A stretch of 64,000 bases of DNA from Bacteroides oleiciplenus YIT 12058 (GTDB lineage Bacteria > Bacteroidota > Bacteroidia > Bacteroidales > Bacteroidaceae), in contig NZ_JH992941.1 in the NCBI RefSeq assembly GCF_000315485.1, positions 682,001-746,000 of the forward strand. Reading direction: 5' to 3'. Positions 20,847 through 50,080 of this stretch are shown piece after piece. The number at the start of each line of letters is the position of its first letter. Within the stretch, counting starts at the first letter, position 1. The notes under the pieces are model-generated. The model was not told where the DNA came from and made no database searches. It worked only from the letters and a program-made list of their open reading frames with translations. The position numbers and the translations under genes are program-made.

Positions 20847-20870
20847 CAGAGAATTGAACAAACAATTGAT

Positions 20871-21812: not shown

Positions 21813-21843
21813 CTCCGCTTATCAAATGCACATAAAAATAACA

Positions 21844-21878
21844 TCTCCCTATTAAAACTATTGGTTTCAATAGGGAGA
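21844..21878 (-). terminator. Hairpin terminator in the left repeat copy
   Basis: TCTCCCTATTAAAA pairs with TTTCAATAGGGAGA (one mismatch) around the loop CTATTGG. It can act on dus transcripts from the left. Its loop is inverted relative to the right copy. Confidence 0.65.
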
Positions 21879-21904
21879 TGCTAAGCAGAACAAGAAACAC
21901 AAAA

Positions 21905-22014
21905 TTATTTCTTTAACTCCACATCAAAACTGGCAGCATCCTTGCACGCAAAGCGCAGAACCGTTTGATATTTATCTTTAGAGACAACCTTGCAATAAAG
22001 GGTCTCGCAACCTT
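21905..22014 (-). pseudogene. 3' fragment of a PL8 lyase gene
   Basis: Read on the minus strand, the fragment encodes [15 protein letters not shown] and [14 protein letters not shown] before TAA, identical to the C-terminus of the lyase at 43311-46397. There is no start or upstream part. It is a by-product of the insertion, not a functional gene. Confidence 0.9.
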
Positions 22015-22017
22015 GAC

Positions 22018-22084
22018 TTTTGACAATAACTACATAAAATTGTACTTCCATCCATAGACTATTTTCCCTCTCCTGGTACCTTCG
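22018..22084 (+). promoter_or_regulatory. Putative HTCS-2 operator and promoter before the GH2 gene
   Basis: The block 22018-22053 matches 31658-31693 before the PUL 2 susC at 30 of 36 positions (core ACATAAAA then TGTACT). In both cases TGTAC lies exactly 36 bp before the -7 box, here TACCTTCG (22077-22084), a weak variant of TAnnTTTG. The region after the box (GCAGCGTAA) is shared too. The rest of the 343-bp gap after dus is the direct repeat and an AT-rich leader. Confidence 0.65.
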
Positions 22085-22155
22085 CAGCGTAATTTCTGCA
22101 TGAAGTTAAAATTAGAATCAATATACAACGAGTTATTAACTTATTCAATACCAAG

Positions 22156-24576
22156 ATGAAGAATATGAGAATTTTGCTAATTATTATTGGGCTTTTTTGC
22201 ATAACGCCTCTTTTTGCTCAGCACAACAATGAGCATATTAGAATAAACCAGCTTTTCAATTTTGGTTGGAAATTCAAATGGGGTGAGGTTACGAATGCCC
22301 ACCATCTGACTTTTGATGATAGTGATTGGCGCAAGCTGGACTTGCCACACGATTTTCAGTTTGAACAACCCTGGGATGAATCTGCCAGTCGAGGGCGCGG
22401 ATATAAAGCGACAGGTATAGGTTGGTATCGAAAAACGTTCCAAGCAGATTCCTGCTGGATGGGAAAGCGGATATTACTTGATTTTGAAGGTATCATGCTA
22501 ACAGGTAACGTTTGGTTAAATGGAAAGAAAGTTGGTGGAACAGATTATGGTTATCTTGGTTTTGAATCAGATATAACGGATATTATTAAATACGATACCG
22601 CTAATGTGATTGCCGTTCGTGCTTCTACAGAAGGAGGTTCCCGTTGGTACACAGGCGGCGGACTTTTTCGGGATGTGCATTTAATCGTAAAAGATACCAT
22701 CTCCATTGTTCGTAACGGCATTTTTATAACAACTCCCAACATCGCCAATCAGCATGCCGAGGTCAGTGTACAAGTGGAAGTGGAGGGGATTAAGAACAAT
22801 CAGAAGCAACTGGAAATCCTAACAAAAATATTTTCGCCTGAAGGGAAACAAGTAGCCGAAACTCAAACGTTGGCCCCACAAAATTCAAGACGCCCTATAG
22901 AAGAAGTTCCATTGCCAAAGGTCATCATCTCTGATCCGCAGCTTTGGTCCTGCGAAACTCCCCATCTTTACACTGCGGAAGTTCAACTGATATTAAACGG
23001 CCAAGTGATTGATAAACTTACTGAGAAGTTTGGTATCCGTACCATTGAGTTCTCCAAGGAATTCGGATTTAAATTAAACGGTAAAAAGGTTTTCCTTAAA
23101 GGTATTGCCAATCATCACGACTTAGGGGCTGTGGGGGCAGCCGCTCACGAAACATCGATTGCCCGCATGATGGACAAACTTAAGGCCTTTGGCTTTAATC
23201 ATATACGAACGTCACACAATCCTTATTCAAAGGCATTCATGAAAATTGCCGACGAGAAAGGAATTCTGATCGTTGATGAATTATACGACAAGTGGAGCAA
23301 CACCATTGCCTGGGCAGGAAGTGCGCCATGGACTGAAATCTGGTATAAGAATCTTATAGAATGGATTAAACGGGACCGCAATCATCCTTCGGTCATTATG
23401 TGGAGCTTTGGAAATGAACTGCAATTTCAGGAAGAACGATGCGGATTTCCAACAAACGATTGGGGAGTAACTACCTACCGAATCCTAAATCTGTTAGCCA
23501 AACGTTACGACCCTACCCGCAAGACAACGGTTGGCATGTATCCTGCCCGTGCCGGAGGCATTGTAAAACACGACCCAGCTTTCAGGATTGAAGAAAACAT
23601 TGTTCCACCCGAATTAGCAACCGTAACCGAAGTCGCCAGTTTCAACTATTGCTGGGATGATTACCAAGAGTATCTGAAACATGCTCCCGACATGATTATT
23701 TATCAAAGCGAGGCTGTAACCAATGAGTTGGCAGCTCCTTACTTCGGAATGGACAGAGAGAAAATGGTCGGATTGGCTTATTGGGGAGCCATCGAGTACT
23801 GGGGAGAATCCGCTGGCTGGCCGAGAAAGGGCTGGGACTATTCATTCTTTAATCATTCTTTAGAACCGAACCCGCAAGCCTATTTAATTAAAAGTATTTT
23901 CGAAGATGAACCATTGGTATATATTGGAATCGTTGATCGAGAAGGTGATACACGATTGTGGAACGACATGATAGTGGGACGAAAATACATCTCCTCACAC
24001 TGGAACCGACAAGAGGGAAAAACATATAATCTTTATACTTACACCAATGCCGACGAGGTGGAATTACTGGTGAATGGCAAATCTATCGGCGTGAAACAGA
24101 ATACGACTGAAGTAACAAAACGCAATGTCATATATTGGGAAAACGTCCCATTCTCTCCCGGCAAAATTACAGCAATTGCCCGGAAAGGAGGCAAAGTCGT
24201 AGCCCAACACGAGCTACAAACTACCGGAAAAGCCGTTCGACTAAAAATAGAAACTGAAAATGCCACCTGGAAAGCCGACGGTATGGATCTTCAATATGTC
24301 AAGGTATATGCCGTTGACAGCAAGGGACGCATAGTGCCGACGGCAACCGGCGAAGTAACTTTCCACGTCAGTGGAGCCGCACAGTTAATTGCAGTGGATA
24401 ATGGCGATCATACAAGTGATGATTTATTTACAGGCCATAAAAAAGCTCTCCACAACGGTTTTGCCATGGCTATTCTACGATCAGGACAAATCGCCGGAAC
24501 CGTAAAATTGAAAGTTACGGCAACAGGTCTGAAACAGGCAGAGAAAACCTTAACTGTACATCCAATCACTAATTAA
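22156..24576 (+). CDS. Glycoside hydrolase family 2 enzyme (beta-galactosidase/beta-glucuronidase type)
   Basis: 806-aa exported GH2 enzyme. Signal peptide, then sugar-binding jelly-roll (NFGWKFKWGEV, WRKLDLPHDF, GIGWYRKTF, NVWLNGKKVG, RWYTGGGLFRDVHL), immunoglobulin-like domain, TIM barrel from ~295 (FLKGIANHHDLG, IRTSHNPY), and two C-terminal beta domains. Likely acid/base is Glu421 in SFGNEL and likely nucleophile is Glu519 in YQSEAV. It is the first gene of the PUL 2 left operon with GH43 and GH28. In pectin loci such enzymes remove beta-galactose or beta-glucuronic acid from side chains. Exact sugar is not predictable here. Confidence 0.9.
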   Translation: MKNMRILLIIIGLFCITPLFAQHNNEHIRINQLFNFGWKFKWGEVTNAHHLTFDDSDWRKLDLPHDFQFEQPWDESASRGRGYKATGIGWYRKTFQADSCWMGKRILLDFEGIMLTGNVWLNGKKVGGTDYGYLGFESDITDIIKYDTANVIAVRASTEGGSRWYTGGGLFRDVHLIVKDTISIVRNGIFITTPNIANQHAEVSVQVEVEGIKNNQKQLEILTKIFSPEGKQVAETQTLAPQNSRRPIEEVPLPKVIISDPQLWSCETPHLYTAEVQLILNGQVIDKLTEKFGIRTIEFSKEFGFKLNGKKVFLKGIANHHDLGAVGAAAHETSIARMMDKLKAFGFNHIRTSHNPYSKAFMKIADEKGILIVDELYDKWSNTIAWAGSAPWTEIWYKNLIEWIKRDRNHPSVIMWSFGNELQFQEERCGFPTNDWGVTTYRILNLLAKRYDPTRKTTVGMYPARAGGIVKHDPAFRIEENIVPPELATVTEVASFNYCWDDYQEYLKHAPDMIIYQSEAVTNELAAPYFGMDREKMVGLAYWGAIEYWGESAGWPRKGWDYSFFNHSLEPNPQAYLIKSIFEDEPLVYIGIVDREGDTRLWNDMIVGRKYISSHWNRQEGKTYNLYTYTNADEVELLVNGKSIGVKQNTTEVTKRNVIYWENVPFSPGKITAIARKGGKVVAQHELQTTGKAVRLKIETENATWKADGMDLQYVKVYAVDSKGRIVPTATGEVTFHVSGAAQLIAVDNGDHTSDDLFTGHKKALHNGFAMAILRSGQIAGTVKLKVTATGLKQAEKTLTVHPITN

Positions 24577-24588
24577 ATAATATATATC

Positions 24589-25593
24589 ATGAAGAACATT
24601 TTATTGAAACGGGGACGCCTTCTCCTCACACTCTTTTTAGTAACTCAATTCACTGATACGTTTGCCCAAAAGCAAACTGTTATTCGTCCGGGTGAAATAT
24701 GGCCCGATACGGATGGTAATCACATACAGGCTCATGGTGGCGGCATTACGCAAATCGGAGACACTTATTACTGGTATGGCGAAGCACGTGCGCAGAGTCA
24801 AGACCCCGATCGACGCTATGTGGGTTGCTACTCATCAAAGGATTTGACGAACTGGAAGTTCAGAGGCAATGTGTTGGAAATGGCTAATCCTGATACACTT
24901 GCTGCCAACTGGGTATTGGAACGCCCCAAAGTCTTTTATAATAAGAAGACGAAGAAATATGTCATGTATGTTCATATTGATGTGAACTATAAGCTGGCAC
25001 AAGTGGGTATTGCAGTGAGCAATAAACCAACCGGTCCGTTTGAATATGTACGACGTTTCCATCCGTTGGGATTTGAAAGCCGGGATATCGGCCAGTTTAT
25101 TGATGAAGACGGTTCCGCGTATTTAATATTTGAGGACCGCCCAAGTGGTGGTTTCCGTATTGCCAAACTATCTGATGACTATATGGATGTTGAAAAGAAC
25201 ATATGCCTCCTGAAAGAGCGTATAGAAGGTGGAGCCATCATCTATTACGAAGGCTTATACTATTGTGTGGGTTCGGGGCTGACCGGTTGGAAACCTAATC
25301 CCAACAAATACGCAACCGCTACTTCACTCGAAGGACCCTGGACGGAATTTAAAGATATCGCTCCACCGGAAGTCAATACATATGGAGCGCAATCATCGAT
25401 GTTGATTAAAGTGGTTGGCTCTAAGAAGACAACAGTCCTGCTTTTGGCTGATATCTGGAAACCCGAAACACAATGGGACTCCCGCTATGTGTTAATGCCG
25501 TTGGAAATTGGTAACGGTAAATTGTGGCTACCTACTCCCCAACCTTATACAATAAATATGAAGACGGGAGAGACTACATTCGTAGAGCAATAA
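24589..25593 (+). CDS. Glycoside hydrolase family 43-like enzyme
   Basis: 334-aa exported five-bladed propeller protein. Opening motif IQAHGGGITQIGDTYYWYGE is typical of GH43 members near subfamilies 24 and 34, which include exo-beta-1,3-galactanases. Further blades: VLERPKVFYNKKTKKYVMYV, SRDIGQFIDEDGSAYLIFED, RIEGGAIIYYEGLYYCVGSG. Glu within RIEGGA is a candidate general acid. It starts 12 bp after the GH2 gene, so translation is probably coupled. Arabinofuranosidase or galactosidase activity on pectin side chains would fit the neighbours. Confidence 0.8.
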   Translation: MKNILLKRGRLLLTLFLVTQFTDTFAQKQTVIRPGEIWPDTDGNHIQAHGGGITQIGDTYYWYGEARAQSQDPDRRYVGCYSSKDLTNWKFRGNVLEMANPDTLAANWVLERPKVFYNKKTKKYVMYVHIDVNYKLAQVGIAVSNKPTGPFEYVRRFHPLGFESRDIGQFIDEDGSAYLIFEDRPSGGFRIAKLSDDYMDVEKNICLLKERIEGGAIIYYEGLYYCVGSGLTGWKPNPNKYATATSLEGPWTEFKDIAPPEVNTYGAQSSMLIKVVGSKKTTVLLLADIWKPETQWDSRYVLMPLEIGNGKLWLPTPQPYTINMKTGETTFVEQ

Positions 25594-25639
25594 CACATAA
25601 AACAGTATTCATATTACATATATACTTACAAAACAAATC

Positions 25640-27277
25640 ATGAAAAGAAGTTGCATAACGCCCATCTATCGCCTGTTTGTAGCCTTCACATTGCCGCTCG
25701 CCTTGTTCTCCTGCAACAATCAACCGACCTCTGTTGCGATTCCAACGGAAGAGCAAGTCGGCGCCTTGGTGATGCCGGAAGAAATCGCTCCCGTCACCGA
25801 TGCACCTTTCGAGTTACCTGATTTCAAGAGACCGGTGTTTCCCGACCTCACAGTCAGCATCACCGAACGTGGAGCTAAAAAAGACACATTTATTACCGAC
25901 GTGATAAATAACCTGATTGATGAAGTGAACGCAAAAGGCGGTGGAACAGTACTGATACCTGCCGGAAAATGGTTTGCCGGGCGTATTACATTGAAGAGCA
26001 ATGTAAACCTCCACATTGCCGAAGGGGCAGTTATCGAATTTTCCGGACGGGTGGAAGATTATCTTCCCGCCGTATTTACCCGCCACGAGGGCATTGAGAT
26101 GTTGGCTTCCGGTGCATTCATTTATGCCAATGGACAACACAACATTGCGGTGACCGGTAAGGGAACAATCCTTGGTCCTGAGTTGGACTCCGAAGTAAGA
26201 ACCCGTTTGAACACTGCAGCCAACGTAGATATAGATGTACCTCCATCCATGCCTCTTGCCAAACGCGTGTTCGACGGTATGGAAGGACGAGATTTCCAAC
26301 CACCGAGAACAATCGCACCAATCAATTGCACCAACGTATTTATCGAAGGCATCACAATGAACCGCAGTGCTATCTGGAACGTAGTACCCACATATTGCGA
26401 GAACGTTATCATCCGTGGAATTACAGTGAATTCGTTGGGGATACCCCGTGGCGACGGCATTGATGTGGAATCGTCTAAAAATGTACTTATCGAGTATTGT
26501 ACCTTGAATTGCGGCGATGATTGCTTTACACTGAAATCGGGCCGGGGAGAAGAAGGAGTGCGCATAGGCAGACCAACCGAAAACGTAGTCATCCGCTACT
26601 CTTTAGCCCAACAAGGACATGGTGGCATAACCTGTGGAAGCGAAACGGCAGGGAATATAAAGAATATCTATGCCCACGATTGCGTTTTTAACGGTACATG
26701 GTCGGGGATTCGTTTCAAAGCATTCCGGCCTCGTGGAGGCGGTACGGAAAATGTATTGTATAAGCGCATCCGCATGATAGATGTGAACGTGGCTTTCATC
26801 TGGGATATGCTGGGAAGCCGCCGTTGGGTGGGCGATCTGGCAAACCGTTTGCCGCTAAGAGAGGTTACTGAACTGACTCCGATATTGAGAAACATTCATG
26901 TAAAAGACTTCATCGTGGAGTCGGCAGACAATTTTATAAGCGCCAACTGCATTCCGGAAATTCCCGTTAACAATGTATTGATTGAAAATGGTGAAGTCAA
27001 CACTACATCACTCATACCTGTGTTGAATGATGTCGACGGATTTATTTTACGCAACCTAAGTTTTCGGGCACGGGAAAATAAGATTAACATCCTTGACGGA
27101 CGGAATATCTTATTAGATCAGGTCAGGTTCGAGATTCCCGGAAATGAATTGGCCGTTAACATACAAGGTACGCAGTCGGCAAGTATTGTGCTCCGAAACA
27201 ATGGCAATGACATCAGGATAGGGACAGCCTCCCACCGACTCATTTTGCAGAATGGGATTGCATTTAAATTAGAGTAA
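25640..27277 (+). CDS. Glycoside hydrolase family 28 (polygalacturonase/rhamnogalacturonase type)
   Basis: 545-aa lipoprotein (LALFSC) with a right-handed beta-helix. It opens with GGGTVLIPAGKWFAGRI and LKSNVNLHIAEGAVIEF. Catalytic motifs of the family are GDGIDVESSKNV, CGDDCFTLKSG, QGHGGITCGSE and SGIRFKAF (the RIK position is RFK). GH28 enzymes hydrolyse alpha-galacturonosyl bonds in pectin. With GH105 and GH106 in the same locus, a rhamnogalacturonan or substituted galacturonan substrate is likely. It ends the left operon of PUL 2. Confidence 0.92.
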   Translation: MKRSCITPIYRLFVAFTLPLALFSCNNQPTSVAIPTEEQVGALVMPEEIAPVTDAPFELPDFKRPVFPDLTVSITERGAKKDTFITDVINNLIDEVNAKGGGTVLIPAGKWFAGRITLKSNVNLHIAEGAVIEFSGRVEDYLPAVFTRHEGIEMLASGAFIYANGQHNIAVTGKGTILGPELDSEVRTRLNTAANVDIDVPPSMPLAKRVFDGMEGRDFQPPRTIAPINCTNVFIEGITMNRSAIWNVVPTYCENVIIRGITVNSLGIPRGDGIDVESSKNVLIEYCTLNCGDDCFTLKSGRGEEGVRIGRPTENVVIRYSLAQQGHGGITCGSETAGNIKNIYAHDCVFNGTWSGIRFKAFRPRGGGTENVLYKRIRMIDVNVAFIWDMLGSRRWVGDLANRLPLREVTELTPILRNIHVKDFIVESADNFISANCIPEIPVNNVLIENGEVNTTSLIPVLNDVDGFILRNLSFRARENKINILDGRNILLDQVRFEIPGNELAVNIQGTQSASIVLRNNGNDIRIGTASHRLILQNGIAFKLE

Positions 27278-27303
27278 ATATATTATTTCTCCTGCCGATT
27301 GCT

Positions 27304-27311
27304 TACCTTTG
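27304..27311 (+). promoter_or_regulatory. Promoter -7 box for the PUL 2 HTCS gene
   Basis: TACCTTTG lies 25 bp before the ATG at 27336 and 26 bp after the GH28 stop. It gives the regulator its own basal promoter. Confidence 0.6.
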
Positions 27312-27335
27312 CTCTTGATTCAACACCGGAAAATC

Positions 27336-30300
27336 ATGTATCAATCTATAATCAGCGATAGACAAAAAACAATTCTGTTTGGGTTGTTATTTCAGTTCCT
27401 GTCTGTTATTATCATACCTTCTTTTGCCCATGATATATTGCAAATCAATACCGTAACCAACCGAAACGGGTTATCCCAGAATACAGTCAGAGCATTGATG
27501 CAAGACAGTCAGGGGTTTCTGTGGATGGGCACTATTAATGGCGTAAACCGGTTTAATGGCAAGGAATTCCTTACCATTAAACCCGGCCCCGGTCTTTCTT
27601 CGTCTATGGCGGACAACAGAATAACAAACCTGTTTGAAGATAAAAACGGTTTTATCTGGATACACACCTTCTCGAATACCTTTTTCTGTTACGATACCAA
27701 ATTAGAATCGTTCATAGATTATACCGCCGAATCAAAACTCTTCAATCAAATTACGGAAACAACCAATGGCGATATCTGGTTATGGGGGAAACAAGGATGC
27801 TTGCGAATACGCCATATAAACGGGAAATTGCAATCGCAGCCTTTTAATGATTCCCGCTTGAATCATCACCCCACATCTGTCTTGTTTGAAGACTCGAAGC
27901 ATAGCGTATGGATTGGAACAGATAACGAACTTTTCCGACTAACGGGTAATACATTAACGTCTGTTGAAAAGGGCACAACCTATAAAAGCGTACACGAAAT
28001 AGGTGAGCGTTTATTTTTTATCTCAGAAAGCAGTATCGCAATATTCGATGACCGTGACCGTGAATTTCTCCCGGCAGTAAGTATCGTCACCGATCCCAGC
28101 GCAGCATTAACTTCTTCTTGCCTCATCGACGGGGGTATCATTCTGATCAACGGAAGAAAAGGAATGCATGCTTTCGATACCCATACACTGAATGTTATAT
28201 CTGCACACCCGTTCTTCCCACATACACCACCGGTGGATGGCAGTTTTATCATTGATAACAAAGGGGGTGTTTGGGTATACAACAGAACAGGAATGCTCTG
28301 GAGACATCGTGCCGGAAATAGGTTTGAGGCATTGCATCTGATCCCTCCTGAAATCTTGCCTTTAGTATATAATGAGCGATTCAAGGTATACCACGATTCA
28401 AGGGGGATTATCTGGATCACTACCTATGGAAACGGACTGTTTGCCATTGACACATCAGATGAAACGATTCATCACTACACTGCAAATAAAGAATTAACAA
28501 GCAACTATCTATTCTGTGTCACCGAAGACAGCTCCGGTGAAATATGGGTAGGTACTGAATTTGCCGGAGCCATCAAAATATCCTTAACCCACTATCCGGT
28601 CAATGTACTCAATGTTTCGAATGACAATATTAACAGAGGGAATGCTATCCGTCTGATATACGAGGACTCCAACCGGCAATATTGGTTCGGAACGCGAGGC
28701 GGACATTTATATCTGTGCGATTCCTTATTCAATCCCTTGCACGATTATCACATGAATGGAGGCATACCCTTTAGCATGGCCGAAGATACGCTGGGCTGTA
28801 AATGGGTGGGAACGAAAGGGGAAGGACTTTTCATCTTTCCGCCCAAAAGCACCGGGGGGAAACCACAGAATTTTCATTTGCATAGCCACGCAAGGCAGAG
28901 CTCTTTAAGCAATAATATCTTCACTGTTCTTCGGGATACCAAAAATCGTATGTGGATTTCGACTTTTGGTGGAGGTCTGCATTTGGGCGAACGGAAAGGT
29001 GACCGACTCACTTTTACTCAGATTAACATGGCAAACGAACAGCAGGACATGATGCGTTCCATGATACAAGACCGCGAGGGCCTGATGTGGGTAGGAAGCA
29101 ATGAAGGCGCCATTGTGTTTGAGCCGGACGAACTGATGCGGGATAATACCCAATACCTGAACTTCCGGTCGGACACGAAGAATCCGCAATCGCTGAGCAA
29201 CGATGAAGTGAAAGTGATTTTTGAAGATAGTAAAGGAAATATCTGGTTAGGTACCACCGGAGGCGGTCTGAACCTGTTGATAAGAGAAAATCCACTCCGT
29301 GATTCGTGGTTTAAGCATTATACCAGCAAAAACGGACTATCGAACGAGATTATCCAAGCTATTACGGAGGATAATGAAGGGTATATATGGGTGAGTACAG
29401 AAAATGACATTTCGAGATTTAATCCCACCACCGAACGTTTTGAAAATATCATTTTCTCTGAAAGCAAACAGCCCACTATTTTCAGTGAGTTATCGAGCTG
29501 GAAAAACAGTGATGGCGAGTTGATGTTCGGAAGTTATAATGGAATATATAGATTTAACCCGGCCGAAATTGCATACAAGACCTATGTTCCTCCGGTTACC
29601 ATTACCGATTTACGCATTAATGGCAATAAAGTAAAACCCGGCGAGGAGCACTCGCCTCTTACGGAAAGTATTACTACCACCTCTAAAATCATCCTTAACC
29701 ATAACCAGAACTCTTTTAATCTGGAGTTTTCGGTGCTTGATTTTCACGCACCGGAGTATAACCAATACACTTACTACCTCGAAGGGTATGAAAAAGATTG
29801 GAATAACATATCACGCAGCAACGTAGCCACCTACCGGAATATCCCTCCGGGAACTTACACTTTCCGTGTAAAAGGAACAAATAGTTTTGGTGTATGGAGT
29901 GCTCAGGAAACTACGGTAGAAATCGTAGTCAAGGCACCGTGGTGGAAATCGGGCTGGGCATTTCTCTTGTATACTATAACCACAGTCATTATTGCCTTTT
30001 TCGTATCGCGAATGCTAATCAAAATACACCGCTTGAATACGGCTGTCGAAGTAGAAAAGCAGTTAACAGAATACAAGTTGCGCTTTTTCACCAACATTTC
30101 ACATGAGTTTCGTACCCCGCTAACAATTATCCGTGGTTCGATAGATGCTTTGCTGAATTATGGTAACCTGCCCTGGTTTGTGGACAAGCAGGTGAACGCC
30201 TTATCCAAAAGTTCCTCCCGTTTACTTCGCCTGATAGATCAATTGCTCGAATTCCGCAAGTTACAAAACAGCAAGATGGAATTACGGTTGGAGAAAACAA

Positions 30301-31613: not shown

Positions 31614-31657
31614 GAATATCCCAAATTTGCCTCAATACATTTCAAATGAACCCTTCA

Positions 31658-31724
31658 TTTTGATAATAACCACATAAAAATGTACTCCCGTACATATATT
31701 CCAAGCGTCCTCTGAGTACGTTTG
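31658..31724 (+). promoter_or_regulatory. Putative HTCS-2 operator and promoter before susC of PUL 2
   Basis: The 36-bp block 31658-31693 is the partner of 22018-22053. The -7 box TACGTTTG is at 31717-31724, with TGTAC 36 bp before it. Transcription would start ~65 bp before the susC ATG. Confidence 0.65.
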
Positions 31725-31795
31725 CAGCGTAACTCCTACGATGAATTGATACATTTCAATAGGAGCCTTAATTAATTTTAAACTAATATTATTTT

Positions 31796-34700: not shown

Positions 34701-34999
34701 GCAAAACACCGGCTTTCTTTGCTAATAGTGTAACTGGCGGGCAATATGATACGAACTGGATGTATGATGCCGGATATGTTCGTATTAAAAATATAACCCT
34801 GGGATACACTCTTCCACTCAAACCAAATGGCATAATAAGCCAAGCTCGTGTATATGCTTCTTGCGATAATGTGTATATGTGGGATAACTATGATCCCGGA
34901 TACTCACCTGAAGGTGCTACGCAAGATGGTGGTGCAGCCGATTGGGGTGCATATCCACAAGCTAGAACATTTTCTTTTGGTGTTAATATAACTTTCTAA
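31796..34999 (+). CDS. SusC-like TonB-dependent importer (PUL 2)
   Basis: 1067-aa outer-membrane importer with a carboxypeptidase-like domain (KSISGTILDSTGEPIIGANV), TonB-box region (LDEVVVVGYGTIKKS), plug (LQGQIAGVSV, ITISVRGNASING, LYVVDGVPL, SASIYGARGSNGVILITTKQG) and a barrel ending TFSFGVNITF. The first codons form the unusual lead-in MENGKRQGALHL before a second Met and the hydrophobic signal. A very similar lead-in precedes the GH106 gene of the same locus. Base composition is visibly more A/T-rich than in PUL 1. Confidence 0.95.
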   Translation: MENGKRQGALHLMRKFLRPSFVVLFLVIATIAFSQSKSISGTILDSTGEPIIGANVTVDGTANGTISDLDGKFSLSGVTDNSKLKVSYIGFLTQIFPVSGKTNFQIILKEDAQSLDEVVVVGYGTIKKSNTVGSIGTMKADAIEDRPIARVEQALQGQIAGVSVRSTSGSPGSDITISVRGNASINGESTPLYVVDGVPLDNLSGINPNDIASLDVLKDAASASIYGARGSNGVILITTKQGRTGKPVITLNAYAAYSTIERKVDVMNSEEWIAFNKKWYDHQWVTKTGQPASVSQADRIAYAEQKDGKTYSSRAELAGIRNNYGIYDPWWDSSDLEAIDWQDELFRTAPSYDIQLNASGATERLNYTVSGGVFSQDGVIHGSSYDRYSLRARFEAQMTDRIKIGVNIAPSYGVREGANVDGKDNAVSGALSLPGWVLPGAGRNAGAKPYKFYDTWGPGPNNVSPYIRATAPERKIADTRVNTSLNTTINILKGLDVHGMVAWNYRSNNEREYTPTWSNGKWDVAKYPGEYSSSTYNTVLSNSLLFQGLLTYTKEWGIHSIDALLGISQESSSTTYSKQGQSAFPDDKTWIFNKDKGKTDKNEVTYNKNAIISYFGRVQYALMDRYLATISLRRDGSSKFGSKNRWGFFPSVSGAWKVNEEPFLRDVEWLGTTKLRLSWGQAGNDRIGTAQFLSNMSALNYPTGEGQTLTNGYVVGNIANSLLGWETTTSYNIGVDFGILNNRIYLSMDYYKKKTKDLLLKAPVSLITGYSNMMDNVGNVDNWGMEFELNTANISARKFKWNSSLNIYFNRNKITSLGTDNSDIRSGQGNTIIQKVGHPINSYMLLRVERTLRASDFEADGVTPKEGIAIYTGQKPGDSKWADVKKDGKITSDDYDVVGSYQPDFEWGFTNTFKYGNFDASILMQGRVGGDLLAIGSRGWNRATGAPGYNYMSRWLYNAYWSEDEPGDGKTPAFFANSVTGGQYDTNWMYDAGYVRIKNITLGYTLPLKPNGIISQARVYASCDNVYMWDNYDPGYSPEGATQDGGAADWGAYPQARTFSFGVNITF

Positions 35000-35011
35000 A
35001 CAGTAAGAACA

Positions 35012-36541
35012 ATGAGAAAAGTAATATATATAGTAGCTCTATTTGCAGTGATATTGTCTTTTGCATCATGCGAGAATAATATTAATATTTATCCGGTCGA
35101 GAATAATACTGCGGACCAGTTTTATTCTTCAGAATTTGAAATGAATCAAGCCATTATTGGGGTGTATGCGCGATTAGGTCGTAATGGCACTAACACTGAC
35201 TTTCCTACCGATTATTATCTGCAAGCATCCGAAGGCCGTTCAGATAACTGGTTCTATGCCTCGTTAGCCAATGCGCAACGCGATCAGGTGGATTTCAGAA
35301 CATTTCATGTTACTGATGTTACAGTATTAAACCAGACCATCTATGCCCGGTTATATCAGATTATTAAGGAAGCAAACAATTTGCTAAGCAAAGCACCTGA
35401 AACTTATACCAGATATCGTGCAGAGGCTTGTTTTCTTCGCGCACTGGCTTATTTTGAACTAGTAAGAGCTTATGGACCTCAGCCGGTATTTAATTACCCG
35501 ATTGAGAATGCGGATGCAAAGAAAATGGAACGTCAGCCTGTCACAGATGCTTATACTCAAATCATTTCCGACCTCGAATTTGCTGCTGCTAATCTTAATC
35601 CGTTTTATACAGGAAACGATGCGGGTCGTGTAGGTTCAATAGCCGCCAAATGTTTATTAGGACAAGTATATGTCACAATGGCCGGATATCCCCTAAATGA
35701 CAACACCGCTTATGGAAAAGCAGAAACTGTATTAAGCGGAATAATGAATGATGTTAAAGCGCGTTTTGCTCCCAATTATGCTTATATCTTCGATGTAGAA
35801 AAAGAAAATAAATATGATCTTTTTTCCGTTCAGTTTGCATCTGGTAATCAAGGGTTGGGAAGTTCAATGGCGGGTTTTGTAACCGCAAGTGGTTCAACTG
35901 GAACCTGTTTTCCTGAATGGGCCTATGCAGGATACACACAGCAAGGTCAAGATTTCCGTGTAGATACGCTTCTGATAAATAAAATGAAAGAAGTCAACGA
36001 TAAGAGATTGGTAACAACAGTCGCCGATGGTTTCTGGACAATAGTTGACCATGGATATACCAAACAAGATACGATTGACTATTATCAAAAAAGGTCTCTT
36101 CTCATCAAATACCTGACCAAGGACAATACAAATGCCACGATTAAAGCGTGGAATGATTATCCGTTAAACTATCCGATCCTCCGCCCAGCAGATGCTTATT
36201 TGTTATATGCCGAAGCATTGGTCAATAATGGCAAAGCCGGTCAAGCCAAAGAATGGGTAGATGCTATACGCGAACGTGCAGGACTTGCTCCTTTAACCGC
36301 AGATCCGACCATAGATGATATCATGTATGAGCGCAGATGCGAATTCTTAGGTGAAGGGAAACGATATTTTGATTTGGTCAGAATGGGGGAAAGTTCTTTT
36401 ATAACCACATTAAAGAACTTCTCAGACCACTACCATGTAGGTAAGAATGCCAATGAACCGGATAAACGCGACATGCTATTACCTATTCCCCTAACTGTAA
36501 GAGCAATACACACCACATGGGAACAAAATTACGGGTATTAG
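35012..36541 (+). CDS. SusD-like surface glycan-binding lipoprotein (PUL 2)
   Basis: 509-aa RagB/SusD protein, 12 bp after susC. Lipoprotein signal ends SFASC. Motifs: FYSSEFEMNQAIIGVYARLG, FLRALAYFELVRAYGPQPV, LRPADAYLLYAEALVN, AIRERAGL, MYERRCEFLGEGKRYFDLVRMG and C-terminal MLLPIPLTV. It would bind rhamnogalacturonan-type fragments at the cell surface and cap the SusC channel. Confidence 0.95.
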   Translation: MRKVIYIVALFAVILSFASCENNINIYPVENNTADQFYSSEFEMNQAIIGVYARLGRNGTNTDFPTDYYLQASEGRSDNWFYASLANAQRDQVDFRTFHVTDVTVLNQTIYARLYQIIKEANNLLSKAPETYTRYRAEACFLRALAYFELVRAYGPQPVFNYPIENADAKKMERQPVTDAYTQIISDLEFAAANLNPFYTGNDAGRVGSIAAKCLLGQVYVTMAGYPLNDNTAYGKAETVLSGIMNDVKARFAPNYAYIFDVEKENKYDLFSVQFASGNQGLGSSMAGFVTASGSTGTCFPEWAYAGYTQQGQDFRVDTLLINKMKEVNDKRLVTTVADGFWTIVDHGYTKQDTIDYYQKRSLLIKYLTKDNTNATIKAWNDYPLNYPILRPADAYLLYAEALVNNGKAGQAKEWVDAIRERAGLAPLTADPTIDDIMYERRCEFLGEGKRYFDLVRMGESSFITTLKNFSDHYHVGKNANEPDKRDMLLPIPLTVRAIHTTWEQNYGY

Positions 36542-36565
36542 TTTATATATAAATGAAGTAAAATG

Positions 36566-36591
36566 GGAGATGTTAGGAAACCTACATCTCC
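36566..36591 (+). terminator. Hairpin after susD of PUL 2
   Basis: GGAGATGTTAGG (36566-36577) pairs with CCTACATCTCC (36581-36591) with one bulged base. The T-run after it is weak, so read-through into the enzyme genes is expected. Confidence 0.5.
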
Positions 36592-36655
36592 TGTTTACTC
36601 TTCAATCTTATAGTTTTCTATCTTCAGCCTTATGACTTAAATAAATGAATATAAT

Positions 36656-39600
36656 ATGAAAGTAAAAACAGGATATACATATTTACTACTTGTCTTCCCG
36701 TTATTTGTTTTAACTTCTTATACAAGTAATAAAGAGTACACACCTTTGCCAGAAAAGGAACAAATGGCACCTTTAAAAAAGGAAGAAGTGCTCAACTACG
36801 CCACATTAGTCAATAGCTATTTCATGCGAAAATATCCCGACGTGAGTGCACCTTCCAATGTAGGAGGCAAGCAAAGAGACAGCAAAATCTGGACACGAGG
36901 TGTATACTACGCTGGTTTAATGGCTATGTATACACAAAACCCTAATCCAACATGGTTGAAATATGCTACAGACTGGGCAGAGTTTCATCACTGGATGGCA
37001 GGTGTAAATAAAACCATTCGTCATGCCGATTTTCAATGCTGCGGACAGGCCTACCTTGATTTATATATGCTAGACAAATCAAAACCAGAACGCAAAGCCC
37101 ATATAAAAAAACTAATCGATAGCATGCTGGCTACCGACAAAATAGATGACTGGGATTGGGTAGATGCATTGTTCATGGCCATGCCGATATTCGCGCAACT
37201 CGGTTCGATTGAAAAAGATAACCGCTATTTTGAACGAATGTATGAAATGTATATGTATACGCGCAATAAACAAGGGGGAGAAGATCGTTGCGGAGGTACC
37301 CCCCTATTTAACGAACAAGACGGACTATGGTACAGAGACCACCATTACGACCCTCCTTATATGGATCTTATTGAAACAGATAAACCTTGTTATTGGTCGA
37401 GAGGAAATGGTTGGGCATATGCAGCCTTGGCTCGTGTATTGCAATATGCACCGAAAGACGTGACTCATCGGAATCAATATATTTATGACTTCAAACGAAT
37501 GTCCGAATCCTTACTTCAATGTCAGCGTACCGATGGATTTTGGAGTGTAAGTTTAGCTGCTCCAACCAACACAGGCGATTCTCTTTCTCCCGGTCCTGAA
37601 ACATCTGGCACAGCTTTATTTGTAGCCGGAATGGCTTATGGAATTAATGAAGGTATTCTGGATCGGAAAACATATTTACCGACTGTAATCAGAGGTTGGA
37701 ATGCCCTTAGCAAAATTGCTGTACGAAAAGAAGACGGTTTACTGGGCTATGTACAAGGAGCAGGCTCAAAGCCCGAAGATGGACAGCCTATGTTAGCTAA
37801 TCATATTCCGGAGTTTGAAGACTTTGGTGTTGGGTGTTTTCTATTGGCTGCTGCAGAAGTATATCGACTGGCAGAGGATGTTCGAGGACTTTATGTCGGT
37901 ACTAATTATCATCCGCACGACGTGGTCCCGGAACAATGGGAACGAGATATCCGCTTAATGAAAGAAGCCGGATTCACAACAGTCCGTCTTGGACACTTAG
38001 CTTGGGATAGTTATGAACCAAGTGATGGACGGTTCGAGTTCGAATGGTTTGATCAAGTGATGGAACTGATGTACAAAGCAGGAATAAAAGTAATACTTGA
38101 TATTGCCGTTCGTCCAGCACCTATTTGGTTGCACAAGAAATACCCATCCATTAGTATCACCGCTTCGGATGGAGATTTGCTATATCCTAACCGCAGATAC
38201 ATGGAGGATGTAGGCGATCCAATGTACCAACAATATGCTTTACGTTTTACAGACGCCATGTCCAAACGATACGCAAACCATCCGGCCTTACTGGCATTCG
38301 GTATAGATAATGAACCGGGCGATGGACGGATATCGTATTCGAAAACAGTGAGACAACGATTTAAAACATGGTTGAAGAATAAATATGTTACTACAGACAA
38401 CCTCAATAAAGCCTGGGCTGGTCAACGTTGGTCAAGGCGAATCAGCGATTTTGATGAAGTCGGATTACCACAATCCGGTTCAATACCAGGCCAACCCGAA
38501 AGAATGCTCGATTTCAGACGCTTTCTTTCCGATGAAATAAACAGCTTTTATTTCAGGATGGTTGATGTTATCAATAGAAATGCACCCAGCGCACTGACAA
38601 ATACAAATGCTTGGTATTATTGCGACAGAAAATATTACGACTATGTACCGATGGCTTATTCCGGAAAAATGACCCGCGAAGGAGCCGGGTTTTATCCGGG
38701 GGGCTCATTACTCTCTAACCCTGCACTATATGATGCGTTGTTCGGTATAGCACGGATTCAGTTCGAAAGTGACAATCCATTCTGGTGTAATGAATTTGCT
38801 ACCATGACTTCAGTGCCTAAAGCGATGAGGAAATACGCTTACGCCACACTGATGTATGGCAATCAAATGGTATGTGGATGGACATGGCAAAGCATGCACG
38901 GAGGAGAAGAACAGTATTTCATGGGTATGATGGATTGGGATGGTCAATTGAACCGAAAGTACTATGAATACAAACAGATTGCCGAAGAGTTTAAGAAAAT
39001 TGAGACTTTTTTCCCCTATAAAATAAATGCTGAAATAGGTCTTGCCTACTCATTTCCGAGCCAGATGGTGGGTAGTAGCTATCCCGTAAAGCATGATACT
39101 CAACTTCAACATTGTTTTGAGCTATTCCTACAGAAAAACATGGATGTCCGGATACTGGATATAAATCGGAGCCAATTGGATTATAAATTACTCATTTTAC
39201 CGGGAATAGCTGTAATGGATAAAGCGTCAGCCGATAAAGTAGAGGCATTTGTAAAAAGCGGAGGAACGGTTATCATGACCAGCCATTCGGCCCTTTTGGA
39301 AGAAACAGGGCAGGTTTTTGCCACAACTTTACCCGGACACCTTAACGAAGTCTTTGGTATTCGCGTAGGAGGTTTTGAGGAGACAAAGAATATGAATGAA
39401 ATTTCACGCCTTTCTTATAAAGAGAAAGAACTTTTGCTAGACTATCAGGGACAGAATGTAGAAACAGAGTCCGCAAGATATGATATCCTTGAAGTACGTG
39501 GTGCCAAAGTACTCGGAAAAATAGTTAGCTTGGACAAAGACTATCCAGTCATCACTTCTCATTCTTACGGAAAGGGCCAGGCCATTTACGTTGGTCTTCC

Positions 39601-39856
39601 AGCAGACAATACCGTCTTAAATCCGATAGTGGATGAATTGATTGAGAAGCTTTCAATCAAGAAAGGACCGGATGTACCCGAAGGTATCATGGCCAGAAAG
39701 ATTGACGATAATCATTTATTAATGCTTAATCTAACCAATGAAACGAAAGAAGTGAAAATAGAAGGAAAAACATATAGTATTCTTCACAATAAAAATTATA
39801 ATGGAAGTTTCAATCTTGCTCCTCAGGAACCTGAATTCATTGAACTGAAAAATTAA
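36656..39856 (+). CDS. GH105-GH42 fusion: unsaturated galacturonyl hydrolase plus beta-galactosidase
   Basis: 1066-aa two-enzyme protein. Residues ~40-395 form an alpha/alpha-barrel of GH105 type: RGVYYAGLMAMY, IRHADFQCCGQAYLDLY with Asp125 as candidate catalytic residue, DRCGGTPLFN, YWSRGNGWAYAALARVL, GTALFVAGMAYG. From ~400 a GH42 beta-galactosidase begins (YHPHDVVPEQWERDIRLMKEAG): acid/base Glu553 in GIDNEP, nucleophile Glu713 in WCNEF, then an amidotransferase-like trimerisation domain (~815-990) and a small C-terminal domain. The N-terminus is exported but lacks a clear lipobox. GH105 removes 4,5-unsaturated galacturonate left by pectin lyases and GH42 removes beta-galactose, so both ends of rhamnogalacturonan-I fragments could be processed together. 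The reading frame is unbroken throughout. Confidence 0.88.
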   Translation: MKVKTGYTYLLLVFPLFVLTSYTSNKEYTPLPEKEQMAPLKKEEVLNYATLVNSYFMRKYPDVSAPSNVGGKQRDSKIWTRGVYYAGLMAMYTQNPNPTWLKYATDWAEFHHWMAGVNKTIRHADFQCCGQAYLDLYMLDKSKPERKAHIKKLIDSMLATDKIDDWDWVDALFMAMPIFAQLGSIEKDNRYFERMYEMYMYTRNKQGGEDRCGGTPLFNEQDGLWYRDHHYDPPYMDLIETDKPCYWSRGNGWAYAALARVLQYAPKDVTHRNQYIYDFKRMSESLLQCQRTDGFWSVSLAAPTNTGDSLSPGPETSGTALFVAGMAYGINEGILDRKTYLPTVIRGWNALSKIAVRKEDGLLGYVQGAGSKPEDGQPMLANHIPEFEDFGVGCFLLAAAEVYRLAEDVRGLYVGTNYHPHDVVPEQWERDIRLMKEAGFTTVRLGHLAWDSYEPSDGRFEFEWFDQVMELMYKAGIKVILDIAVRPAPIWLHKKYPSISITASDGDLLYPNRRYMEDVGDPMYQQYALRFTDAMSKRYANHPALLAFGIDNEPGDGRISYSKTVRQRFKTWLKNKYVTTDNLNKAWAGQRWSRRISDFDEVGLPQSGSIPGQPERMLDFRRFLSDEINSFYFRMVDVINRNAPSALTNTNAWYYCDRKYYDYVPMAYSGKMTREGAGFYPGGSLLSNPALYDALFGIARIQFESDNPFWCNEFATMTSVPKAMRKYAYATLMYGNQMVCGWTWQSMHGGEEQYFMGMMDWDGQLNRKYYEYKQIAEEFKKIETFFPYKINAEIGLAYSFPSQMVGSSYPVKHDTQLQHCFELFLQKNMDVRILDINRSQLDYKLLILPGIAVMDKASADKVEAFVKSGGTVIMTSHSALLEETGQVFATTLPGHLNEVFGIRVGGFEETKNMNEISRLSYKEKELLLDYQGQNVETESARYDILEVRGAKVLGKIVSLDKDYPVITSHSYGKGQAIYVGLPADNTVLNPIVDELIEKLSIKKGPDVPEGIMARKIDDNHLLMLNLTNETKEVKIEGKTYSILHNKNYNGSFNLAPQEPEFIELKN

Positions 39857-39927
39857 TATATAGACTTTCCATCGTTTTAAACCCATGTTTTATGAAAAAT
39901 AAAAAAAAACAAGTTACTTTACACCTT

Positions 39928-42900
39928 ATGAAACAGATGAGAGTTATATCTCTATTGCTCCTATCCAGTGTAATGCTGCCGGGATGTGGTAAACAGAACC
40001 AGTATATCACAGAAAGTTTGTCTGATGCACTTTATGGATTTGAGCATATCCAAGACAGTGCCCGCACGAAGGTTTGGTGGTTCCACGGAGAAACAGAAAC
40101 CACCAAAGAAGGGATAACCGCCGATCTGGAGGCCTACAAGAAAGCAGGAGTAGGAGGCGTTGTATACTACGACCAGACCCACTGGAAAATGGAGAATGCT
40201 TTACCCGCATTTTCAACAGAATGGTGGGAAATGCTTCGATTCTCGGCCGAAGAAGCAAAGCGGCTAGACCTAACTTTTGAATTGAATATCTCTAATGGGT
40301 TTGTTGCCGGTGGTCCCTGGATTACGGATGAATTAAGCATGAAGAGGCTTGCAGCAAGTGAACTGCTTATTGATGGAGGACGCTTCTTTGAGGGTAACCT
40401 GGAAGTACCCAAAAATCAGTATAACTTTTATAAAGATGTGGCCGTTTTAGCTTTTCCCGTACAAGAAGAAACCGGAACGTCCCGCACAGAAAAAGTAAAA
40501 GTATCATCGAACATACCGGAAATAGATGTAGATAATATATTTAATCCTAAATCAAAGTCTTTGACACAAATTCCTGTTACCTCCAAAGGCAATGTGTATA
40601 TTAATATGGAGTTTTCTGACGAGTTTACAGCCAGAAGTATGACTTATGAAGCATACCCACAAGTAAGGGTGAGAACCAGCGCAACGAATATTCCCGGTCC
40701 TCCGGGAGAAACATTCGTAGGTACCGGCTATCGTGTCCTCCCCGACTTCGGTCAATTGGAAGTTTCAGAAGATGGTGTGAATTACAAAAAGGTTTGTGAT
40801 ATTAAGCCCACCTATCACTCTCTCGAAGGTTGGCGTCAAAGAACAATTTCGTTCAATGCAGTAAAGGGAAAATATTACCGGCTGAATCTTCACGACTGGT
40901 GGGATGAGAAGATGACCAACCCGAATCTTCAGCTTGGAGCGGTAGTGTTGAGTTCATCGGCAAAACTTGATCAATGGGAGAAAAAAGCCGGATTCTATTC
41001 CGACTATATAGACCGCGATAAGACTCCGGATTACTCCAAATCAGAAGTTATTGACTCCAAAAGCATCATAAACATCACTGACAAAATTGATGCGAATGGT
41101 GTTTTGCGCTGGAATGTCCCCACAGGCAAATGGCTGATAATGCGTTTTGTATACGTACCAACCGGAGGAGCTATCAAACATGGAAGACCCAATTTAATGG
41201 GAAGGGAATGTGATAAATTATCTGCAAAAGCAGCCGAAGTACAATGGGATAATTATGTAGGGAAGATTCTTGATTCGCTGAAGGTCACAAATAGCGGACA
41301 TGTTTCGGGTATCATAATGGATAGTCATGAAGCTGGCGCACAAAACTGGACCGACGATTTTATGGTTGAGTTTAAGCAACGACAGGGGTATGATCCAATC
41401 CTTTATCTTCCTGCCATGATGGGGTATATTATTGATGGAGTGAAGGAATCCAATGGATTTCTTTTTGATGTGAGGCGCAACATTGCAGATATGGTGGCCG
41501 ATAATTATTTTGGAACCATGGAGCGTTTATGTAATGAAAATGGGTTAATACTTACCGCCCAAGCCATTGGGAACGCTTTAGGCATTGTTGGCGACCCTAT
41601 TCAGGCAAAAAGCAAAGTCAGTAAACCTCAGGGAGAATTCTGGGGCATACATCCGACCGGAAATTATGACATAAAAGAAAGTTCTTCGTCAGCTCATTTA
41701 TACGGAAAGAAAATAGCTTCCGCAGAAGCGTATACTGATGTTAAATTCAGTGCATCATTAGCCTTTATTAAATCACTTGCCGACTATGCCTATGCCTTCG
41801 GCATTAATGAATTTGTAATCTGTGCATCCGCCTATCAGCCTTGGTTGGATAAAATACCTGGAAGCACAGGGGGGGGACGCCATTACGCCATCAATAGAAA
41901 TAATACCTTTTGGAATTACAGTGCTCCTTTTTGGGATTTTCAGGCACGAAATGCTTTTATCATGCGCCAAGGTAAATCTTCCATTGATTTGTGTGTTTAT
42001 TTGGGAGGAAATGCCCCGATAAAGATTCTGACATATAGACTTCCGGACATACCGGGTGGCTTTGATTTTGATGCTTTTACCACTGATGCGCTGCTCACCA
42101 GAATGAATGTGTGCGATAGAAAGATCACATTACCCGATGGAGTGAATTACAAGATGATGGTTCTGCCGGAAAATGGCGATATTACTTTAGATGCTTTGCA
42201 GAAAATTGCTTCTATGGTGAAAGCGGGAGCAAAAATCTACGGACCTAAACCAACTGGTTCTGATTCTGGGAAAGAATTAGAAAGAGAGGCTGAATATCAG
42301 AAACTCACCAAGGAATTATGGGGTGAGAATCCATCGTCATCAGGAGTTAACAAAGTAGGAAAAGGCGAAGTATATTGGGGGATGACTTTGGCAAAAGCAA
42401 TTGAACAGGCTAACATTATCCCTGATATTCAAATGGAAAAAGGTGATACGAAAGCATCAATGATTTATTTCACACATCGTGAACTGACGGATGCTAATAT
42501 CTACTTTCTGGATAATCATAAAGATGAGGAAGAAGATAACATCTTTACTTTTGCTTCACATGGTAAATATGCCCAGTTGTGGAATACCGTAACAGGCAAG
42601 CGATTCTCTCTTCCAATCTTAAAATCAGATAGTAAAAGTACATCCATTAAACTACACTTACATCCTCGTGAATCGTATTTTGTAGTAATAACAGATAAGG
42701 AAGAACAGCTTCCTCCTATCTCCTGGTTTACCTCTAAAGATAAAACGGAAAGGATTGAAGGTCCGTGGCAAGTTTATTTTGATAAGAAATTCGGAGGACC
42801 AGGCAATGTTACCTTTGATAATCTAAGCGATTGGACAACAAATACGGATCCATGCATTAAATATTATTCAGGTACTGCTATCTACAAAAAGACAATTTCC

Positions 42901-43218
42901 ACACATACCACTGGAAACAAGGTTTATATTGATCTGGATAATCCGGGATTTATTGCACGGGTGTTTGTTAATTCGCAAGATGCCGGAGTTGTTTGGTGCT
43001 CGCCCTGGAAGTTAGAAATCACTCCGTATTTGGTAGATGGAGAGAATAATATTGAAATCCATGTAGCAAACTCATTGATGAATCGCATGATATATGATGC
43101 TTCATTAAAGGAAAGCGAGCGCATTACTTACTCTTATCCACAAATTGCTACTCCAAATGATAGGCTTGAACCTTCGGGACTAAGACAAGTTAAGTTAATA
43201 TGGAAACACGATAATTAA
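39928..43218 (+). CDS. GH106-like alpha-L-rhamnosidase
   Basis: 1096-aa lipoprotein (signal ending VMLPGC) resembling GH106 alpha-L-rhamnosidases. Visible: KVWWFHGETETTKEGITADL and YKKAGVGGVVYYDQ at the start of the barrel, WWEMLRFSAEEAKRL, LTFELNISNGFVAGGPW, SGIIMDSHEAGAQNWTDDF with candidate catalytic Glu, YTDVKFSASLAFIKSLADYAYAFGINEFVICASAYQP, and a C-terminal jelly-roll (VYIDLDNPGFIARVFVN). It would take terminal alpha-rhamnose off rhamnogalacturonan fragments. An ATG at 39892 would add MKNKKKQVTLHL, echoing the susC lead-in. I chose 39928 because it gives a normal lipoprotein signal. It is the last gene of PUL 2. Confidence 0.85.
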   Translation: MKQMRVISLLLLSSVMLPGCGKQNQYITESLSDALYGFEHIQDSARTKVWWFHGETETTKEGITADLEAYKKAGVGGVVYYDQTHWKMENALPAFSTEWWEMLRFSAEEAKRLDLTFELNISNGFVAGGPWITDELSMKRLAASELLIDGGRFFEGNLEVPKNQYNFYKDVAVLAFPVQEETGTSRTEKVKVSSNIPEIDVDNIFNPKSKSLTQIPVTSKGNVYINMEFSDEFTARSMTYEAYPQVRVRTSATNIPGPPGETFVGTGYRVLPDFGQLEVSEDGVNYKKVCDIKPTYHSLEGWRQRTISFNAVKGKYYRLNLHDWWDEKMTNPNLQLGAVVLSSSAKLDQWEKKAGFYSDYIDRDKTPDYSKSEVIDSKSIINITDKIDANGVLRWNVPTGKWLIMRFVYVPTGGAIKHGRPNLMGRECDKLSAKAAEVQWDNYVGKILDSLKVTNSGHVSGIIMDSHEAGAQNWTDDFMVEFKQRQGYDPILYLPAMMGYIIDGVKESNGFLFDVRRNIADMVADNYFGTMERLCNENGLILTAQAIGNALGIVGDPIQAKSKVSKPQGEFWGIHPTGNYDIKESSSSAHLYGKKIASAEAYTDVKFSASLAFIKSLADYAYAFGINEFVICASAYQPWLDKIPGSTGGGRHYAINRNNTFWNYSAPFWDFQARNAFIMRQGKSSIDLCVYLGGNAPIKILTYRLPDIPGGFDFDAFTTDALLTRMNVCDRKITLPDGVNYKMMVLPENGDITLDALQKIASMVKAGAKIYGPKPTGSDSGKELEREAEYQKLTKELWGENPSSSGVNKVGKGEVYWGMTLAKAIEQANIIPDIQMEKGDTKASMIYFTHRELTDANIYFLDNHKDEEEDNIFTFASHGKYAQLWNTVTGKRFSLPILKSDSKSTSIKLHLHPRESYFVVITDKEEQLPPISWFTSKDKTERIEGPWQVYFDKKFGGPGNVTFDNLSDWTTNTDPCIKYYSGTAIYKKTISTHTTGNKVYIDLDNPGFIARVFVNSQDAGVVWCSPWKLEITPYLVDGENNIEIHVANSLMNRMIYDASLKESERITYSYPQIATPNDRLEPSGLRQVKLIWKHDN

Positions 43219-43249
43219 TAGTTATCACGAATCATAAATATACAGTTCT

Positions 43250-43284
43250 TCTCCCTATTGAAACCAATAATTTCAATAGGGAGA
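43250..43284 (-). terminator. Terminator hairpin between GH106 and PL8-2 (convergent genes)
   Basis: A perfect 14-bp stem TCTCCCTATTGAAA / TTTCAATAGGGAGA with the 7-nt loop CCAATAA. It lies between convergent genes and can act in both directions. Confidence 0.75.
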
Positions 43285-43421
43285 TGCTAAGCAGAACAAG
43301 AAATACAAAATTATTTCTTTAACTCCACATCAAAACTGGCAGCATCCTTGCACGCAAAGCGCAGAACCGTTTGATATTTATCTTTAGAGACAACCTTGCA
43401 ATAAGGGGTTTCAGCAACCTT
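43250..43421. repeat. Direct repeat, right copy: 3' end of the PL8-2 gene plus terminator
   Basis: Matches 21844-22014. Here the sequence is in its natural place and continues into the intact lyase gene. It begins 31 bp after the GH106 stop, so it forms the right boundary of PUL 2. Confidence 0.92.
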
Positions 43422-50072: not shown

Positions 50073-50080
50073 TATACTGC

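Follow-up and report, generated by a model that had tools for sequence, protein, structure and literature searches.

Integrative elements that enter genes at their 3′ ends are flanked by direct repeats and keep the gene end intact. Polysaccharide utilisation locus (PUL) islands without mobile genes have been described in Bacteroides ovatus/xylanisolvens between core-gene "genomic nodes", where the flanking core genes resembled those of the other species at 29 loci, 7 of them with PULs, a signature present in only part of the islands (PMC8845570). Here we describe PUL 2, a 21,235-bp PUL at 22015-43249 (plus strand) of a 64,000-bp stretch of the Bacteroides oleiciplenus YIT 12058 genome, referred to as the window (NZ_JH992941.1, 682,001-746,000; genome total 7,085,990 bp, ~7.09 Mb). 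PUL 2 lies at an old node between dus (20844-21812, plus strand) and the PL8 lyase gene PL8-2 (43311-46397, minus strand), both assigned by Pfam, and is bordered by two direct copies of the 3′ end of PL8-2. It is similar to the B. ovatus/xylanisolvens islands in that a PUL stands between conserved neighbours, with no mobile genes and with variable content among relatives; it differs in that part of those islands have donor-like flanks (PMC8845570), whereas PUL 2 has native-looking flanks and a 171-bp target duplication. The gain of a PUL at a node is thus a kind of event that is already known, but a scar made of a 171-bp native duplication is unusual. No description of such a scar was found in a small body of partly accessible literature on PULs with repeats, circles, islands and recombination (including PMC13188876) and on illegitimate recombination.

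The two border copies (21844-22014 and 43250-43421, both read on the minus strand) are 171 and 172 bp long and 95% identical (E 5e-72 for the second copy), at the coordinates given by an earlier first-pass annotation of the window that had been made from its letters alone. This annotation had also read the right copy as the intact end of PL8-2 and the left copy as an orphan, and translation of both copies bore it out. The right copy, composed of a hairpin and the intact 3′ end, encodes the C-terminus of PL8-2 with its stop codon. The left copy, composed of a hairpin and an orphan 3′ end, encodes the same final residues, VELKK-stop, with one residue changed and a frameshift near the cut end. 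Homology stops sharply beyond the repeat edges, the rightward extension scoring at the level of shuffled sequences and the leftward score being reached by 5% of 300 shuffles. A search of the whole genome returned four matches, namely the two full copies and the two hairpins pairing inverted with each other, and no third full copy. Nine differences separate the copies, five of which fall in the hairpin (repeat positions 11, 16, 18, 20 and 21), the others being substitutions at 55, 156 and 161 and a 1-bp indel at 164.

In order to compare the interval between dus and PL8-2 across relatives, one genome per species was used, all from species other than B. oleiciplenus. The genome G043 was found to carry the empty site, since its alignment to 44921-43250 and 22014-20330 runs through one repeat copy. 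More specifically, G043 contig C17 tracks the window from 1 to 22014 and resumes at 43250 to ~56.6 kb without PUL 2; the aligned blocks are 87-95% identical, and gaps occur at 47.8-50.6 kb. The convergent dus/PL8-2 junction with a single repeat, which had been predicted as the state before insertion, thus exists in a relative. In G047 and G079, dus also adjoins PL8-2 without PUL 2, and in G087 and G057 a 456-aa open reading frame (ORF), read from its sequence as a sulfatase, sits between the two genes. Within a set of 158 genomes of the genus, the PL8-2 3′ end was detected at E 1e-20 in 43, our own genome included, and 41 of the 42 other loci were retrieved (all but that of G117). At 30 of these 41 loci dus was convergent and at most 6 kb from the PL8-2 3′ end (7 at 27-224 bp, 19 at 1.4-2.3 kb and 4 at 3.5-5.7 kb), and none of the 30 intervals contained PUL 2 genes. 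No second direct copy of the PL8-2 end (at least 100 bp) was found in the 41 stretches, whose extent past that end is at most ~10 kb.

At the remaining 11 loci, two of them near contig ends, dus was not found within the cut-off on the 3′ side of PL8-2. Two of these relatives involve genes of the type found in PUL 1, the PUL of the window that comprises a hybrid two-component regulator (HTCS), a sulfatase, a SusC/SusD pair and a PL8 lyase, followed by a GH43-like gene, which scores below the curated cut-off, and then dus, with PL8-2 facing dus; we read PUL 1 as a chondroitin-type locus. In G083, dus is ~18 kb away and PUL 1-type HTCS, SusC/SusD and PL8 genes lie between PL8-2 and dus (L149 463-19062), and in G131 a partial dus match is found ~10 kb away, at the end of the stretch, and is likewise separated from PL8-2 by PUL 1-type PL8 and SusC/SusD genes (L115 10117-19893). 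As read from these loci, the gene order of the dus/PL8-2 neighbourhood changes between species. Some other genomes carry different cargo at this place, which makes it a variable node: G007 has genes of the GH2 and fucosidase families, G021 a transposase of IS110 type, and G001 and G091 a DcaP-like gene. In G022, another cargo at the same border consists of a SusC/SusD pair with one more TonB receptor, ~400 bp past the PL8-2 3′ end (L155 10666-18707). PUL 2 shows three features of a genomic-node PUL island, namely conserved neighbours (30 of 41 loci), no mobile-DNA functions in its eight genes and variable content in the relatives whose intervals were examined.

Based on the empty site of G043 and the 30 dus/PL8-2 loci without PUL 2, PUL 2 is most simply read as a gain by the B. 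oleiciplenus lineage, and its insertion, as proposed in the first-pass annotation, is well supported. The origin of the duplicated DNA was judged from nine sites at which both repeat copies share one base and G043 has another. These shared bases point to a duplication within the recipient's own lineage, the simplest reading being the copying of a single native stretch once that lineage had split from G043. The cassette had been proposed to have rebuilt the gene end that it entered; the end of PL8-2 is indeed intact, but a duplication of the recipient's own PL8-2 end describes the shared bases better. Three of the nine sites could be aligned further, and G047 and G087 side with G043 at 71, 122 and 127, as does G057 at 71 and 127. 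Two substitutions and a 1-bp deletion belong to the left copy alone, and one substitution and the hairpin changes to the right copy; at position 164 the left copy, the right copy and G043 all differ. Over the 137 columns outside the hairpin the copies differ by 3 substitutions and 1 indel, as compared with 11 differences between the right copy and G043. On this scale, the low divergence that had suggested a recent event or gene conversion to the first-pass annotation would place the duplication after the G043 split, though not in the very recent past, provided that no gene conversion took place.

The DNA next to the borders was compared with six relatives in 500-bp windows. Identity to G043 was 92.0-95.2% in the five windows beside the borders, around the average over 46 windows (93.4, standard deviation 3.1), and G043 was the closest of the six relatives in all five. 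On the PL8-2 side, the first three windows gave 95.2, 94.8 and 94.6%. No signature of a donor from another species was found in the flanking genes by this comparison; the flanks look native, and a donor of the same species is possible.

Eight large plus-strand ORFs occupy 22156-43218, the non-coding rest between the repeats amounting to 141 bp on the left and 31 bp on the right. Pfam assigned them to a GH2 enzyme (22156-24576), a GH43 enzyme (24589-25593), a GH28 enzyme of the polygalacturonase family (25640-27277), an HTCS (27309-31613), a SusC-like TonB-dependent receptor (31796-34999), a SusD-like protein (35012-36541), a fusion of Glyco_hydro_88 and GH42 domains (36656-39856) and a GH106 alpha-L-rhamnosidase family protein (39892-43218). 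The Glyco_hydro_88 family of Pfam also covers GH105. With an HTCS, a SusC/SusD pair and glycoside hydrolases, PUL 2 has the composition of an HTCS-regulated PUL, and its enzyme families suggest that it is probably a complete pectin-type utilisation locus of the rhamnogalacturonan-I type. The leaders of ~100 bp that precede the GH2 operon (22018-22118, plus strand) and susC (31658-31760, plus strand) are alike, with a score of 77 against 39 for the best of 500 shuffles. They likely represent a shared HTCS control region, and their likeness fits one regulator for two operons, in agreement with the annotation of PUL 2 as a self-contained cassette with two operons and a single regulator. The shared leader starts four bases past the end of the left repeat; the cassette therefore seems to have been cut close to its functional limits.

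Relatives of PUL 2 were sought in the 158 genomes of the genus and in 399 genomes of the family, with 2-3 candidates scored per genome. These searches were not exhaustive, given that the SusD matches listed from the 399 genomes comprise G138 only (70%) although G018 and G083 have relatives at 68%. Within this scope, no close copy of PUL 2 was found in either set. The best DNA matches in the genus were 70% (G018) and 69% (G138) over ~4.3 kb of susC/susD, the other listed stretches being at 64-76%. For the GH106 protein, the best match of almost full length among the family genomes was at 57% (G139), and a match to only part of the protein was at 58% (G164). The GH88-GH42 fusion was matched at E 1e-200 by five other genomes of the genus (n=149, own included), solely in its GH42 part (61-65%), and by 12 loci of a named genome collection in its GH88 half only (46-53%); no GH42 relative stood beside the GH88 match in the five of these 12 loci that were checked. 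In G083, a related SusC/SusD/GH106 locus, with protein identities of 71/68/45%, is found across the PL8-2 operon, on the side away from its PL8-2 border, where it is flanked by DUF2851 and runs in the matching direction (L148 5793-15100). It carries a FecR-type gene, and no HTCS was seen beside it. The GC content of PUL 2 is 0.419, as compared with 0.464 and 0.461 for the flanks and 0.441 for 1.246 Mb measured. We infer that the source was an unsampled Bacteroides-type donor.

No integrase or transposase had been seen in the first-pass annotation, and Pfam detected neither these nor any other recombinase or mobility domain in the eight genes of 22015-43249, which leave no space for an integrase. 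A composite transposon was not recognised either: there is no insertion sequence at the borders, which are made of the PL8-2 end and the hairpin and occur in two copies genome-wide. The region 20000-44999 gave no megablast match in phage and plasmid records, and exact border patterns gave none in viral contigs, a result that bears little on an excised circle. Rfam gave no match and no tRNA was found in the window. Apart from the shared leader inside PUL 2, nothing else in the 1.246 Mb of contig searched matched the border sequences well. The GH88-GH42 protein matches 337 plasmid records, all at less than 60%, and a single PADLOC hit, in which the GH2 protein matched a CARF/beta-galactosidase model, was set aside.

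Overall, we consider it slightly more probable than all other outcomes taken together that PUL 2 arose by illegitimate insertion of incoming DNA between dus and PL8-2, with duplication of the native target, after the split from G043; the mechanism of entry is what we infer rather than observe. DNA from an unsampled Bacteroides-type donor would have been joined illegitimately in the course of repair or replication. If one of its ends met the inner edge of the 171-bp stretch (22014) and the other end the outer edge (43250), the stretch itself would have been copied, by a template switch or by fill-in of staggered ends. PL8-2 would have been kept whole and the left copy would have decayed as an orphan. 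At its present site the cassette would function like any other PUL under HTCS control, its two operons sharing a control sequence, and self-movement would not be expected. Joining of incoming DNA at least partly without long homology is documented for homology-facilitated illegitimate recombination and single crossing-over, in work that dealt with small plasmids in laboratory E. coli and not with a 21-kb PUL (PMC3240628). Duplications arising with DNA uptake are likewise described for pneumococcal merodiploids after transformation, but these span ~100-900 kb, occur in a competent species and form via existing repeats (PMC3784515). Several observations weigh against illegitimate insertion of foreign DNA as set out here. 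Microhomology was not evident at the joints, as judged by eye only, and the joining step itself was not seen. The differences between the copies do not separate a template switch, staggered ends and a single crossover. At repeat position 122 G057 has the base of the window, which makes one of the three polarised sites doubtful, and gene conversion could be the source of the likeness between the copies. Finally, the tetranucleotide distance of PUL 2 is reached by 21% of 111 background stretches; as PUL 2 is no compositional outlier, its foreign origin rests on its absence from relatives.

The order repeat, cargo, repeat is also the product of one crossover, and the first-pass annotation had proposed that a circle carrying the PL8-2 end entered in this way. 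A circle that held PUL 2 together with one copy of the repeat may have entered by one RecA-type crossover within that repeat, and incoming DNA is reported to circularise and integrate by single crossing-over in E. coli (PMC3240628). We nevertheless regard it as rather unlikely. As both copies share the bases of the lineage, the circle must already have carried an own-lineage PL8-2 end. It would have had to originate in this lineage, or in one very close to it, where PUL 2 already stood beside PL8-2, which leaves the first linkage unexplained; moreover, the differences outside the hairpin (55, 156, 161 and 164) show no split into a host half and a donor half. Incoming DNA with PUL 2 followed by a PL8-2 end could instead have recombined by homology at its right side and been joined illegitimately at its left, or flanking node genes could have been exchanged. 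Homology-facilitated illegitimate recombination is known at low frequency in E. coli conjugation (PMC3240628) and the node islands of B. ovatus/xylanisolvens lie between core genes without mobile genes (PMC8845570). Exchange of flanks across species, as that latter report presents it, predicts donor-like flanks and is not supported at PUL 2 because none from another species were seen; the PL8-2 side holds no tract of another species, and none of the six relatives is closer to it than G043. We therefore give this route little credence.

Three further routes are less likely still. PUL 2 might have stood first beyond the PL8-2 operon, with a tandem duplication and subsequent deletions yielding the present order and a PL8-2 stub; the related SusC/SusD/GH106 locus of G083 does lie on that side in matching direction, and the order of the neighbourhood does shift, as G083 and G131 show by their PUL 1-type genes between PL8-2 and dus. 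This scenario appears very improbable, given that it needs three events, that the G083 locus is distant, with its FecR-type gene and no HTCS seen beside it, and that the border sequences lack another good match on the contig searched. If PUL 2 and both repeats were ancestral, loss by recombination between the repeats would yield exactly the structure of G043. Such an ancestry is hardly credible, however, as the distance between the copies is far below that between the right copy and G043, both copies share nine bases against G043, and the 30 loci with dus near PL8-2 showed no PUL 2 in this position. Like integrative islands in general, PUL 2 has direct repeats and a target at the 3′ end of a gene that is kept intact, and it could accordingly be the remnant of a site-specific element that lost its integrase from a 3′ gene-end attachment site. 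The repeat of 171 bp is longer than the usual core site of integrative elements. PUL 2 differs from them in that no integrase or element family was found, the repeat occurs nowhere else in the genome and no phage or plasmid match was obtained, so that the likeness drawn in the annotation was not supported and we consider such a remnant very improbable.

The hairpins within the two repeat copies were also compared. Over 39 bases, that of the left copy (21842-21880) is identical to its counterpart at the empty site in G043. Pattern matching gave one terminator-like hit there, a hairpin whose T-run for transcripts of the minus strand lies on the dus side, against 0.5 expected in shuffles. None was scored at the right copy, so transcription of PL8-2 may now end less well. 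In the right-copy hairpin (43250-43284), the inner part is a near-inverse of that of the left copy and of G043, and four of its five changes (11, 16, 18 and 20) equal the complement of the opposite arm, as judged by eye. Inversion of the hairpin was considered as a mark of the insertion and rejected: among the seven window palindromes comparable with G043 none scored as clearly flipped, and two others (2835-2873 and 50108-50155) fit G043 equally in both directions. Since these two are equally ambiguous in direction, the right-copy hairpin changes were taken as background.

Two further features of the window were recorded. At 47762-50645 a VapE-like gene lies between a BACOVA_00961-like gene and DUF2851, with partial matches only in G043 and none found in the G047 stretch. 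At 55919-58804 a 961-aa Y_Y_Y-domain protein is 53% identical in G043, compared with 97-99% for three neighbours, and a G047 piece matches it at 98%; a possible explanation of this pattern would be allele replacement in the G043 lineage. Direct repeats were also surveyed on contig C2 (1,624,090 bp) beyond its first 7 kb, the other 14 contigs being searched for the 171-bp repeat only. Thirteen direct-repeat pairs (60-1500 bp, at least 80% identity, 2-90 kb apart), the PUL 2 pair included, were found among 42 SusC-like clusters. One of them, of 137 bp and 92.7% identity (273918-274054 and 276029-276165 of C2), lies in and beside a 933-aa ORF, which we take to be RHS-like, perhaps with a displaced end. 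By eye, the 374009/381234 pair borders a SusC/SusD-like operon, the repeat preceding the genes as a shared leader would. A third pair is a 1,048-bp repeat of 99.1% identity, 50 kb apart (811955-813000 and 862504-863551). The start of C2 omitted from the survey, outside the window, holds a 127-bp unit repeated 51 times in tandem with 100% matches (665-7143); it has no match in phage records and, lying close to the end of the contig, may stem from the assembly.

The scar described here hints at how PUL cassettes get in. Entry of PULs without integrative and conjugative elements has so far mostly been inferred from mosaic maps; PUL 2 offers one datable event that can be compared with the flank-exchange model, through its empty site, the native look of its flanks and the duplication of a native target. 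It is improbable, but conceivable, that PUL 2 is a mobile cassette without a recombinase of its own, which host RecA would excise as a circle via the 171-bp repeats and reinsert at the PL8-2 ends of sister strains. If so, whole PULs would spread within a species through borrowed target repeats, without any mobility gene. Should the repeats recombine, gain and loss of a diet trait would have a natural switch in the cassette.

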